DNA of 64,000 nt from Phormidium tenue FACHB-1052 (lineage in GTDB: Bacteria; Cyanobacteriota; Cyanobacteriia; Phormidesmidales; Phormidesmidaceae). Below the pieces are notes generated by a model. That model had not been told where the DNA came from and made no database searches. It saw only the letters and a program-made list of their open reading frames with translations. Position 1 is the stretch's first letter, and every line of letters begins with the position of its first letter. The stretch covers positions 124,001 through 188,000 of the forward strand of contig NZ_JACJQN010000005.1 of assembly GCF_014696675.1 (NCBI RefSeq), written 5' to 3'. Positions 13,833-19,406 of this stretch are shown here, piece by piece. The position numbers were made by a program, and so were the translations under genes.

Positions 13833-15782
13833 TCACTGGCTCTGCCACTGCTGAATCTCCTGCTGGGCCTGGTCATAGGCGCTGGTGCCGGGGGGCACTA
13901 GGCCCGCAGCGGAGATCGCGCTGGGAAGTTGGCCGGAGGCCGCGCGGGCACGGGCGATCGCCAAAATATCTCGGCTCCACTGGTCGATGCGCTCCTGGGC
14001 GATCGCCGATTCAGGGTAGTCGGGAGGAATTTGCTGGGCGATCGCGATCGCCGACTGAAACGAGGTGGCCTGGTCGGGCTGAAGTAAGCTCTGGGCCTCT
14101 TGCAATAGCTGCCGATTGACTCGGCTCTGCTCCCACTTTTGAACTTGGGCCTGGGCCTGTCCCCAGGTTTCGCCCTGATCTTCGGGCACTAGGCGGGCAG
14201 CCGAAATGGCGGCATCTAAATCACCCGCAGCGGCTCGGCCTTCGGCCAAGTCTAGAATCACCAAACTCCAGCGCTTAATATCGGCCTGGGCCTGATCGTA
14301 GGCTGGATCCCCGACGGGCACTTGCCGAGCCTGCTCAATAGCATCGTTAAAAAGGGAAGCCGAAACTGGCTCAATCAGACGGCGGGCCTGGGTGAGGGCA
14401 GCCCCCCCCGACAGCTCAGCGTTGGTATAGCCCATTTCCGCCTGGTTAACCAGGGCTTCGTAGTCTTCGGGACGCTCACCCTCAGGAATTTGGGTCAGCC
14501 AGCTCAGCGCCTCGCCAAACTGACGCTGGTCAAGGGCCGTTCTAGCTCGCGCTAGGGCCTCGGCACCGCTCGCAGCCGCTCCTGGAAATAGGGGTTCCCC
14601 AACCGTCTCAGCAGCAGGATCGACTTCTCCCCCAGTCCCACCGGAAGGGGGAACGACAGACGGCGCAGTAGCCTCAGGGGCAGCACCTCCCCCCACAAAG
14701 CTCTCTTGGTTGCGCCACAGCACACCGAGCAGCAGCAGCCCCGCCGCTAAAATTACCCAGCGCTGCCAGGGCACCAGACTAGAGGTAGCTGGCTGACTCG
14801 GAGCGGATGGTTTCGTAACCTCAGGCAGAACTCCCGGCAGCAGCTCCGGTTCAACCGGCTCGATCGATGGCCGAGGCTTAGCAAACTCATTGTTGGGAAG
14901 ATCTACAGGCACCAGAGCTGGGTAAACGGGCCAGCTTGGGCTCGGCTCTATCGGCAGAGAGATGCTTGGCTCGGGCTGAGGTTCTGACAGAATCTCTGGC
15001 TGAGGCATAACGCCAAGGGGCATTTGGCCCACCAGGCTAGGGGGCACCAGCATGGCGTACTGCTGGCCAGAGGGCACCACGGCCACGGGGTTTTGCACGG
15101 GTCGCCAGTGGTGTTGGCACAGCTCAGGCACGCGATCGCCCAGGTAATCCACTAGCTGAGCTAGGGTCAGACAGCCATGGAACCGCATTCCTTCGATCAA
15201 GGCTTCGGTAAACAGGCCGTGGCGCACCGCCAGCGTCTCCTGTGAAAACTGGTTGGGCTGGCAGGAGAGCACCAGGGGAATCTCCAGACTTTTCGCCAGA
15301 GCCAGGGTTTGATCGCCGAGGTTACCCCCTCCGGGAGCAGGACTGAGCGCGCTCTGGGGTCGGTTCATGTCGAGCATGACGATCGACTGGCGCTGATTCC
15401 CCTGGGCCAATTGATCTAGCAGAGTTTCTACCAAAATGCCGGTTTGATCAATGCGGTTGGGGTCGGCATCGATGGGCAGCAGATAATCCTTTCCCTGCCA
15501 CTGCACCCCGTAGCCGCTAAAGAAAAACCACACCGTATCTTCAGGGTCGGCGCGATCGCAGCTCTGGGCCAGTCGTTGCAGCATCACCTCGCGGGTTGGC
15601 GCAGCCGCCCCCTCATAGACAACCGCAGAAATATCCGTCAGCAACGAGCAATACTGGGCCGGCAACCCCACCTCGGCCACCAAAAAGTCTCGCAGTTCGA
15701 GGGCGTCAAACTGGGCATACATCAGGGGCTGAAGCGATTGATATTGATTGATGCCAACGATCACGGGCCAATGGCTTGCCAT
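13833..15782 (-). CDS. Caspase-fold (orthocaspase-like) membrane protein lacking the catalytic dyad
   Basis: Residues 5-220 form a peptidase C14 p20-like domain: VIVGINQYQSLQPL, the DALELRDFLV block, TVWFFFSGYGVQWQGKDYLLP and IVMLDMNRPQS. In active caspase homologues the Tyr91 position is the catalytic His and the Asn140 position is the catalytic Cys, so this copy has a Tyr/Asn pair and should not be a protease. A Pro-rich linker follows (residues ~265-345), then one transmembrane segment (WVILAAGLLLLGVLW, ~350-365) and a C-terminal helical array with at least three repeats around a DQAQ..I..W motif. I start at ATG 15782 (MASHWPVIVG); upstream residues have no domain character. Inactive variants of cyanobacterial orthocaspases are known; this one is probably a scaffold or regulator. 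Confidence 0.82.
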   Translation of the reverse strand: MASHWPVIVGINQYQSLQPLMYAQFDALELRDFLVAEVGLPAQYCSLLTDISAVVYEGAAAPTREVMLQRLAQSCDRADPEDTVWFFFSGYGVQWQGKDYLLPIDADPNRIDQTGILVETLLDQLAQGNQRQSIVMLDMNRPQSALSPAPGGGNLGDQTLALAKSLEIPLVLSCQPNQFSQETLAVRHGLFTEALIEGMRFHGCLTLAQLVDYLGDRVPELCQHHWRPVQNPVAVVPSGQQYAMLVPPSLVGQMPLGVMPQPEILSEPQPEPSISLPIEPSPSWPVYPALVPVDLPNNEFAKPRPSIEPVEPELLPGVLPEVTKPSAPSQPATSSLVPWQRWVILAAGLLLLGVLWRNQESFVGGGAAPEATAPSVVPPSGGTGGEVDPAAETVGEPLFPGAAASGAEALARARTALDQRQFGEALSWLTQIPEGERPEDYEALVNQAEMGYTNAELSGGAALTQARRLIEPVSASLFNDAIEQARQVPVGDPAYDQAQADIKRWSLVILDLAEGRAAAGDLDAAISAARLVPEDQGETWGQAQAQVQKWEQSRVNRQLLQEAQSLLQPDQATSFQSAIAIAQQIPPDYPESAIAQERIDQWSRDILAIARARAASGQLPSAISAAGLVPPGTSAYDQAQQEIQQWQSQ

Positions 15783-15976
15783 GCCTTTTGAATGCCTCTC
15801 GTACTGTAGAGTTGAGGGATAAAAATTCCCCTGCCATAGTAGCGCCTGCGTGGCCAAACGGAAGCGTTGACCGGCAACCCCAGACGGCGACAATTCTTAA
15901 TTGACGATTAGCGGCTCTATCGCTAGAGTTAAAGCACTTTTTGGGCATCCTGCGAGGATGTGTGGAGCAGTAGGCC

Positions 15977-16426
15977 ATGAAATTGATGTCTCGTTTAACC
16001 AAGCGCAATGGGACTAAGCACCAGGGGCAGCCCCGCTCTACGTCTTGGGCAGCCCTCACCCTGGCCGCGCTGATGGGCTTTGGGGGCGTGGCTCTGCCGT
16101 CCCTCGTCGCTCCGCCCGTGGCCGAGGCCTACACGTCGCGCGTCAACCTCTACCTGGTGCGCGAACAGGGCGAAAGTTTTGAGACATTGGTGCAGCGCTC
16201 CGAAATCATTGCCCGAGCCGCCATTCAGCGCAGCTTCGACGCCGATGTGCTGATGACTGACGTGATCGTCACCGTCATTGGCGACAACCAAGGTATCTCT
16301 GTCCCCATTCTCACGGTGCCGGTGAGCCGCAGCGAGTGGCAGCTCCGACCCGATGTACCCGAGTGGGCCAATTACTTTGAAGCGGCTAGAGCCTTAGTTG
16401 GCGATGCCGAGTCAGCAGCTCCCTAG
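15977..16426 (+). CDS. Secreted or periplasmic hypothetical protein
   Basis: A 149-residue protein with a long basic N-terminus followed by a hydrophobic segment (AALTLAALMGFGGVALPSLV) and an Ala-rich cleavage-like site before AEAYTSRV, consistent with a signal peptide. The mature part of about 100 residues alternates strands and helices (VNLYLVREQGESFETLVQR, ILTVPVSRSEW, VPEWANYFEAARALV). I do not recognise the family. It is divergent from the caspase-like gene, and the 190-base gap between them holds a small hairpin (CATCC-TGCGA-GGATG). Confidence 0.65.
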   Translation: MKLMSRLTKRNGTKHQGQPRSTSWAALTLAALMGFGGVALPSLVAPPVAEAYTSRVNLYLVREQGESFETLVQRSEIIARAAIQRSFDADVLMTDVIVTVIGDNQGISVPILTVPVSRSEWQLRPDVPEWANYFEAARALVGDAESAAP

Positions 16427-17442: not shown

Positions 17443-19269
17443 CTAAATAAACGGACGAGCTTCTGGGGCCAGGGGCGATCGCGGTGCCACCTTAGGTTCC
17501 CTAGGCTCGTCGGCTTTGGCCTCTGAGGAATCTGCCTCAGGGGCCTTTTCGGTAATGGGTGGGCTGGGTTCTGCCTGCTCTTCACCAGAAGAATCGCTAT
17601 CGGGTTCAACCATCTCAGGTTGTACTCTATGTGGCTCGGGGGCCTCCCCAGACTCTGGGTTAGGCAGCAAATCTAGGTCAGGGTCAGGCGCAACCTGGGG
17701 CAGATCGCCAAAGGTATCCTTTGGAGTTGGCACAGGGGACGCAGGCGCGGGGGCTGGATTGGCCGGGTTGCGCCACTGCTTAAAACGGTTGAGCAACCCT
17801 TTAGTACCGGGTTCTGGAGTAGCTTCTGGAATCGCGGGGGCTGGGCGCACGGGTACAGGCTCAGGCTCCACTTGGGGAGACAGCACCGGGGGAATTTCCG
17901 GATCGGCCAGGGGAACCATGTCTTCAATGGCATCCTTTGACTCAGGGGCGATCGCAGGAGAAGCTTCGACAGCAGAGCGATCGGGATTAAGGGCGTCCGC
18001 TTCGGCATCTTCCCCAGCACCATTGTCTTCCGGCATGAATTGATCGTCCTTAGCCGCCTCTGACTCGATCGATTTCTCGGGTAGAAGAGATGGAGTGGGT
18101 GGGGTCTCGTCTTCAGGCTCATCTGGGGAAATGCCTTGAGCATCTGGAGCAGTTGATTCGGACTCGGGTTGCTCCTGGGTCGTTTCGGGTTGAGATGGCT
18201 CTGGGGCAGTAATGTCTGGTTGCGTAATCTCAGGCTCAGGAGCATTCTGCTCTGGCGTTTCTACGTCAGCGGCGGGAGGTTGAGGTTCTGGGGTCTCGGC
18301 TGTCGGCTCGGGGGTCGGGGGCACATAGGTGGGGTCGATAATGCCCGCCACATCCTTTAGACCCAGTTCACCTCGCACCAGGCGAGAGAGGGTATCGCTG
18401 CCGCCGGGCTGGTAGTCGATGATGCGCACGGTGTTGTTAAAGCGGTTGTCGATGGGGTTGCCGCTTTCGTCAATCAGTTCGAGCTGTACCCAGTTGCGGC
18501 CCGGCTTAAAGCCCTTGAGCCAAATGGGCTGCCACTGGTCAAATACAAAGCTCTGGTCGTTGACGGTGCAGCGGATGCGCCAGTCGTGCAGATCGTCATT
18601 GGCCTCGGCCTGGGCGCTCATGTGCAGGGGTGCATTGGTGAGATAAAAGTCGAGCATGATTGGCTCGGCCCCGTAGGTCGCTTGAGGACGACTGTAGGTG
18701 AGCAGGGGAGCCTTGGCGTTAAGCTCATTTTGGGGCGTGGGGGCCACTACGTGGAATGTGCGCTGGTCGAAAGCTCCCTGGTTTTTGAAGCTTTCGTGCC
18801 AGGGACGTGACGCGAACACGCGCAGGGTATGGGTACCAGGGGAAAGCCCGTCAAAGGTAATCGGTTCTGACAGGTCGTAGACCGCTTGATAGGGTTCGTT
18901 GTCGAGGAACAGGTGCAGGTGAGGGCCGAGGTCGTAGGCGTCGTCTTTGAACAGGGGCAGACCGCGCACCTGGAGCCGCACCGAGACACTGGTGTCGTCT
19001 AGCACTTCGCCGGGGCGGGGGCTAAGAATGCGCACTTGGGGGGTGTAGGCGTCGATGATTTGCTTGAGGGTCTCTAGGGTTTCGGGGGGAGAGACCTCGG
19101 CAATTTGCCCAGTGAGACGGTTGGACTGGGGGGTAGGCTCTGACAGCAGCTCGGTGGGCTGCACGGGTTTGGCGCAGCTAGCTAGAAAGATCAGTGCGAT
19201 CGCACAGAGGGCCACAGCTCGCCGTCCTAGTCCCATGACCTTGCGGATGAACCCTTGTGTCGTGCCCAT
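17443..19269 (-). CDS. Putative lipoprotein with Pro/Glu-rich C-terminal half
   Basis: From the ATG at 19269 the protein is 608 residues and starts with a lipoprotein signal (hydrophobic stretch ending LASC, residues ~28-31), so it is likely anchored to a membrane. Residues 50-300 are beta-rich with pieces such as VRILSPRPGEVLDDTSVSVRL, the DLGPHLHLFLDNEPY block and FDGLSPGTHTLRVFASRPWHE, reminiscent of Ig-like or FHA-adjacent cyanobacterial domains. From about residue 330 the sequence is Pro/Glu/Thr-rich and probably disordered. Upstream in-frame residues (to 19509) lack signal character and overlap the divergent gene, so I reject the longer start. Function unknown. Confidence 0.75.
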   Translation of the reverse strand: MGTTQGFIRKVMGLGRRAVALCAIALIFLASCAKPVQPTELLSEPTPQSNRLTGQIAEVSPPETLETLKQIIDAYTPQVRILSPRPGEVLDDTSVSVRLQVRGLPLFKDDAYDLGPHLHLFLDNEPYQAVYDLSEPITFDGLSPGTHTLRVFASRPWHESFKNQGAFDQRTFHVVAPTPQNELNAKAPLLTYSRPQATYGAEPIMLDFYLTNAPLHMSAQAEANDDLHDWRIRCTVNDQSFVFDQWQPIWLKGFKPGRNWVQLELIDESGNPIDNRFNNTVRIIDYQPGGSDTLSRLVRGELGLKDVAGIIDPTYVPPTPEPTAETPEPQPPAADVETPEQNAPEPEITQPDITAPEPSQPETTQEQPESESTAPDAQGISPDEPEDETPPTPSLLPEKSIESEAAKDDQFMPEDNGAGEDAEADALNPDRSAVEASPAIAPESKDAIEDMVPLADPEIPPVLSPQVEPEPVPVRPAPAIPEATPEPGTKGLLNRFKQWRNPANPAPAPASPVPTPKDTFGDLPQVAPDPDLDLLPNPESGEAPEPHRVQPEMVEPDSDSSGEEQAEPSPPITEKAPEADSSEAKADEPREPKVAPRSPLAPEARPFI

Positions 19270-19406
19270 GCTGCTATTCTCTACGTCTTTACAACCAATA
19301 CCATAGGCCACTTTAGGGTCTTTACAGCAATCGCCACACAGCTTTTTGCTAGCGCAGGAGAGCTGAGCTACACTGTCTCGACATACCCAAGGGAGGGTTG
19401 TCAGAC

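Follow-up and report, generated by a model that had tools for sequence, protein, structure and literature searches.

A Tyr/Asn pseudo-orthocaspase with a conserved helical-repeat array and a divergently encoded exported neighbour in Phormidium tenue

The window, by which is meant the whole stretch of 64,000 nucleotides analysed from Phormidium tenue FACHB-1052 (contig NZ_JACJQN010000005.1), carries on its minus strand a YN-type pseudo-orthocaspase gene (13833..15782) that encodes a protein of 649 aa, with its ATG at 15782 and its stop at 13833-13835. Alignment backs this start, M1 being invariant in 53 of 53 aligned rows; a TTG at 15893, the start given in a mechanical ORF list, is disfavoured, the conserved first residue being that of the ATG at 15782. 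The product consists of a caspase (p20-like) domain (residues 1-250; 15033..15782), a proline-rich disordered linker (residues 256-334; 14781..15017), a predicted single transmembrane helix (residues 339-357; 14712..14768) and a helical-repeat array (residues 406-648; 13839..14567), all encoded on the minus strand. Across a 194-bp intergenic region (15783..15976) a plus-strand gene (15977..16426) reads in the other direction and encodes an exported protein of 149 aa from an unnamed family, here called fam1.

The caspase domain is recognized by Pfam as Peptidase_C14 (PF00656; residues 7-219, E 3.1e-16, 60.2 bits against a cut-off of 21.4). Within PADLOC only the caspase model matches the protein (E 2.4e-9), PHROGs has no match for it, and against the NCBIfam model NF047832 (EACC1-associated caspase) it scores 44.9 bits, below the curated cut-off of 140. 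The first-pass annotation had read Tyr91 in place of the catalytic His and Asn140 in place of the catalytic Cys. Both codons were re-read on the minus strand as TAC (15510..15512) and AAC (15363..15365), and alignment to active orthocaspases and metacaspases placed no His or Cys elsewhere at these positions. For example, in the paralogue L165, which retains the His/Cys (HC) pair, the motifs DNFWFFFSGHG and LILDACR align with DTVWFFFSGYG and VMLDMNR of the window protein. The alignment with HC paralogues is free of gaps inside both active-site motifs, which rules out a misaligned dyad; gaps start a few residues after the second motif. When the family profile is aligned to metacaspases from yeast, Candida and Trypanosoma, their SGHG falls on SGYG; these alignments end before the Cys position, so that metacaspases agree at the His position and HC paralogues at both. 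A phmmer search of PDB sequences with the window protein alone returned nothing at E up to 0.1, and the family profile did return metacaspases.

The fold itself is kept, as the annotation had also held. The AlphaFold2 model of the 649-aa protein has a mean pLDDT of 82.6, and most of the caspase domain falls in blocks whose mean exceeds 90. It matches Arabidopsis metacaspase-4 with Z 25.0 and an rmsd of 2.2 over 220 aligned residues, reaching residue 253. Foldseek relates the model to MALT1 (E 1.2e-9). Beyond the domain the pLDDT falls below 50 at residues 258-336. For the membrane tether that had been proposed, a helix at 339-357 is predicted from the model and from hydropathy, and the window's own hydropathy value is marginal at 1.65. 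In 71 of 79 rows from the best 80 of 500 stretches plus the window the helix reaches 1.6.

The C-terminal helical repeat array was likewise borne out. Its helices between residues 406 and 648 have block means mostly above 90 in the AlphaFold2 model. One motif occurs four times in it; divided by hand, the array yields hairpin units of about 41-44 aa. The array is Cys-free and has no Pfam match; no Pfam TPR family reaches even E 1 in the window protein. A TPR-protein ARM model matches one relative, L106, weakly and below its cut-off (E 0.0092). By sequence the array itself is weakly similar to a designed helical repeat (E 7e-4), with no stretch passing alone. In the structure search the caspase domain took up the matches. 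Matches to other proteins in the array only are seen in many related genomes. A second protein, of 670 aa (L054:3713-5722, minus strand), combines a hydrophobic segment with a helical array like this one and has no Pfam caspase match.

Cysteine is absent from the array across the family. There is none in 18,016 array residues of 78 of 78 orthologues (from the best 80 of 500 stretches plus the window), and none in 12,429 residues of the post-membrane part in 44 rows of a second set that comes partly from the same genomes. The incomplete rows L077, L079 and L084 were excluded from the cysteine and conservation counts. The caspase domain has 2.07 Cys per 100 residues, and eight neighbouring gene families have 0.63-1.54. 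The tails of HC paralogues contain 4-8 Cys in 16 of 17 cases, with one tail lacking Cys, and the mature exported protein has 3 Cys in 5,591 residues. An array without Cys suggests a place outside the cytosol, which would be the periplasm or the thylakoid lumen. Composition explains part of the signal, since linker 1 also has few Cys (0.06 per 100) and one HC tail is Cys-free. The charges that flank the helix lean slightly against a topology with the array outside and the caspase domain inside: in 78 rows from the best 80 of 500 plus the window, K+R is higher on the C-terminal side in 36, higher on the N-terminal side in 9 and equal in 33.

Orthologues with the same Tyr/Asn pair are abundant. 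In an alignment of 81 rows (the best 80 of 500 confirmed stretches plus the window) the dyads are 72 YN, 6 CN, 1 YS, 1 YH and 1 YK, and none of the 81 has HC. A second set of 47 rows, partly from the same genomes, has 36 YN, 4 YS, 2 HN and one each of YH, CN, YK, LN and YR; HC is again found in 0 of 47. Among the same best 80 of 500 plus the window, the His position is Tyr in 75 of 81 rows and Cys in 6, Asn140 at the Cys position is kept in 78 and the adjacent Arg141 in 79. The pocket positions D26, S89 and D138 are invariant (81 of 81 rows of this best-80-plus-window set), and W85, a few residues before Tyr91, occurs in 76 of the 81. D26 aligns with the TbMCA2 Asp taken for pocket residue Asp95, a number worked out from a tagged construct. 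A quick tree of 64 selected rows, computed with no bootstrap and with none of the published YN clade's own sequences among its rows, places the family (44 rows) together on one side of a branch supported at SH-aLRT 100. Near relatives are found in Leptolyngbya sp. FACHB-60 and Nodosilinea species. A match occurs in 55 of 57 related genomes, a count in which other proteins that match through the array alone are included. In a draw of 292 genomes across the phylum, 63 have a match at E of 1e-30 or lower; of these 63, G120 does so through the array alone, and G183 was counted through its array, its ORF also having a YH caspase domain.

The window protein belongs to the YN clade of pseudo-orthocaspases described by Klemencic et al. 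in 2019 (PMC6426788), as that clade is set out in the parts of the paper covered here, with representatives in Leptolyngbya, Calothrix, Microcoleus, Nostoc and Planktothrix, a Trp ahead of the Tyr and a retained acidic pocket. The same clade is named in the covered parts of PMC7475262 and PMC8283722, the latter giving WP_010997820.1 as the member from Nostoc sp. PCC 7120. Inactive orthocaspases are thus in print for cyanobacteria, as the first-pass annotation had said; the domain mix that it singled out as notable turned out to be the usual architecture of a known clade, spread over many cyanobacterial families and not specific to this genome. Two further loci of the window genome are related. 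The one at G000:C31:179203 (L005) encodes a YG pseudo-orthocaspase with a twin-arginine-type start, and because L005 is of the YG type, both known pseudo clades seem to be represented in the genome. The other, at G000:C21:17302 (L004:1354-2819), is an orthocaspase apparently spread over two reading frames: one ORF contains the His part and the next one the LDSCHSG part, owing to a frameshift, decay or assembly error.

The distribution bears on a published association with nitrogen fixation. The window genome (99.99% complete) has no nifH match above the curated cut-off; it has one weaker nifH-like match, which is probably chlL. Among the matches listed for the 63 caspase-positive genomes, 34 genomes have nifH above the cut-off and 8 a split nifH, in a count that may miss weak pieces of split nifH. 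Also among the matches listed, 16 of the 63, the window's included, have a single sub-cut-off match, and 5 have several weak matches, possibly from split nifH. The hosts of YN proteins that are named to genus are presumably filamentous. The covered text of PMC6426788 ties the YN clade to multicellular nitrogen fixers only. As a generalisation this does not hold, and the present data weaken the link; clade membership is unaffected.

The divergent exported partner, absent from the first-pass annotation, is the stronger functional lead. Its predicted signal peptide spans about residues 1-51 and the mature protein would begin at Tyr52; (A/V/S)xA precedes residue 52 in 53 of 53 rows. The model shows a compact alpha/beta domain, and the block means for residues 51-140 are all at least 93. 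The window's copy has no family in Pfam, NCBIfam, PHROGs or PADLOC, and four relatives, searched against Pfam alone, gave a best, sub-cut-off E of 0.056. Among the structural matches listed, the fold also has no clear relative: the best Foldseek E is 0.13, and the best VIA match, to a cAM373 precursor domain, has Z 6.1 and an rmsd of 2.5 over 83 aligned residues.

The partner gene stands head-to-head with the caspase gene, at most 460 bp away, in at least 53 of 81 loci (best 80 of 500 plus the window). This is a lower bound, with less than 350 bp of upstream sequence available at L067, L076 and L091. At L064 and L068 the partner was missed by the ORF call, and a profile search of the same genomes (G015 and G002) finds it beside the caspase gene, the G002 match having one TAG inside. 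At L069 an 87-aa ORF was called between the two genes. In the draw of 292 genomes a close partner copy, defined by a cut of 1e-28 chosen after inspection of the table, is found in 44, of which 40 also have the caspase gene. Of these 40, 34 have the genes within 4 kb, 24 of them from one family.

Conservation of this kind can be read in two ways, since divergent neighbours can persist through shared promoter constraint. The exported protein may be functionally unrelated, with a stable intergenic or promoter region as all that the genes have in common and the caspase protein acting alone. This we regard as unlikely, if a serious alternative. It would account for the 23 of 63 caspase-matching genomes that lack a close partner copy, from which it follows that the partner is not obligatory, for the six genomes in which both genes are present but apart, and for G060, where the partner is kept, the caspase gene is absent and the gene order looks the same by eye. 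It fits less well with the orientation of the neighbouring pairs, which is divergent in 34 of 34 cases over seven families, or with G050 (L172:887-3618). There the partner is divergent to an array protein of 419 aa that also has a hydrophobic stretch and lacks the caspase domain; the 494 bp between its start and the partner gene are too few for one.

The intergenic region has blocks conserved in Nodosilinea, and those conserved in Nostocales are different. A sigma-70-like promoter match for the exported-protein gene (15901..15929, plus strand; TTGACG, 17 nt, TAGAGT) rests on the consensus, two such matches being found in the region against 0.4 expected. In most of 20 aligned Nostocales regions (e.g., L100:6800-7000), though not in L132, the caspase gene is preceded by a conserved inverted repeat. 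When a shared operator was sought, the inverted repeat turned up at a single place in the genome, with as many as 2 mismatches allowed, and therefore no regulon follows from it. Distant copies of the exported family have been seen away from the caspase gene, beside large proteins with a twin-arginine-like start (L187:3263-6313 and L188:594-3713). The window also encodes a long Pro/Glu-rich protein (17443-19281, minus strand) with a weak, sub-cut-off DUF6130 match, relatives of which occur near the gene pair in 14 of the best 80 of 500 loci.

A different role for the caspase protein would be that of a decoy or partner of active orthocaspases in the same cell, where it would bind such an enzyme or its substrate and tune the activity, as cFLIP does for caspase-8. 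The window genome also encodes two HC orthocaspases (L001 and L002), the pocket is kept, and the cFLIP and TbMC4 precedents are discussed in the covered part of PMC6426788. The two HC proteins are, however, the most distant rows of the tree, the membrane array and the exported neighbour would be left unexplained, and the same paper, in the part covered, argues against such a role because small unicellular cyanobacteria have only the pseudo-variant. We consider it improbable.

Selection has acted on both folded parts. By the Nei-Gojobori method, dN/dS against 10 orthologues is 0.04-0.14 for the caspase domain and 0.05-0.13 for the array, 0.25-0.62 for linker 1 (in the 8 of 10 comparisons where it is defined) and 0.14-0.70 for the short membrane segment, with dS above 1 or undefined in several of the 10 comparisons. 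The caspase domain is under strong purifying selection and is not drifting. With the fold kept and the HC pair absent in every aligned member, the pseudoenzyme reading of the first annotation is well supported; the signalling or scaffold role attached to it is one that we infer. To our knowledge neither Tyr nor Asn is a usual protease nucleophile. This, together with the change of the His position to Cys, His or Leu inside the clade, makes it very doubtful that the altered pocket (Tyr91, Asn140, Arg141) still catalyses some reaction, even though Asn140 and Arg141 are kept beyond what simple loss needs (78 and 79 of 81 rows, best 80 of 500 plus the window). Gene decay, suggested by the absence of both catalytic residues, has next to no probability and is ruled out by the dN/dS of the caspase domain (again with dS above 1 or undefined in several comparisons) and opposed by open-frame orthologues in many families.

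On balance we favour the view that the caspase protein is a non-proteolytic transmembrane sensor or scaffold, a reading of moderate confidence, for which we infer the topology, binding and signalling. The caspase domain, devoid of the His/Cys pair, would sit in the cytosol, tied across the membrane to the array by the disordered Pro-rich linker and one membrane helix. The array may bind a ligand in the envelope or the lumen, perhaps the exported protein whose gene lies head-to-head with the caspase gene. The inactive pocket of the caspase domain, its acidic substrate-binding residues kept, might hold a cytosolic client. A more specific proposal can be offered only tentatively: the pair may form a two-gene envelope signalling module of filamentous cyanobacteria, in which the outer array would read the new-family exported protein and the cytosolic dead caspase would pass that state on by retaining or letting go of a client that has basic residues. 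The core of such a module would be formed by the array together with the exported protein, and the caspase domain would be an exchangeable output.

The YN pseudo-orthocaspase kind of filamentous cyanobacteria and its membrane tether are already known from the covered parts of the published work, and no experimental function for YN pseudo-orthocaspases was found in that literature as covered. What looks new here is the conserved repeat array and the exported partner gene that is often adjacent, both undescribed in the open-licence literature covered. A conserved exported partner together with a domain that is probably not cytosolic gives a direct, testable entry to YN function.

The His/Cys pair is a feature of the metacaspases AtMC4, YCA1 (yeast) and TbMCA2, which resemble the window protein in fold (Z 25.0 for metacaspase-4) and in an alignable first half of the active site, and differ from it in that pair, the His of which is seen in the profile alignment. 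The HC orthocaspases of the phylum (L156-L171 and L173) are the tree rows nearest the clade and have the same motifs around the active site. In contrast to the window protein they keep the HC pair and have no match past query residue 354, so none to the array. The YS/YG pseudo-orthocaspases, exemplified by SyOC (sll0148) of Synechocystis, whose knockout has been examined in connection with oxidative stress, also have the caspase fold and have lost the dyad (PMC7889975, in the part covered). They differ in the dyad itself, and the YS group has a TAT-like N-terminal extension, according to the covered part of PMC6426788, that is absent from the window protein.

Membrane helices have been described in orthocaspases before. 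A 2012 survey reported a metacaspase with a C-terminal helix in seven cyanobacterial species, the caspase domain being predicted inside, and its covered text does not give the dyads (PMC3501461); the covered part of PMC8283722 counts 37 pseudo-orthocaspases that have membrane helices, most of these helices lying C-terminal to the caspase domain, so that a tether in such proteins is not new. These share with the window protein one helix C-terminal to the caspase domain, and they differ in that neither a repeat array nor a partner gene is described for them in the parts of the two papers covered. The closest likeness is to the YN clade, with which the window protein shares the caspase domain, the Tyr/Asn pair, the Trp before the Tyr and the acidic pocket residues. 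The covered text of PMC6426788 gives that clade no identifiable C-terminal domain after the caspase part, whereas the proteins described here carry a conserved array in that place.
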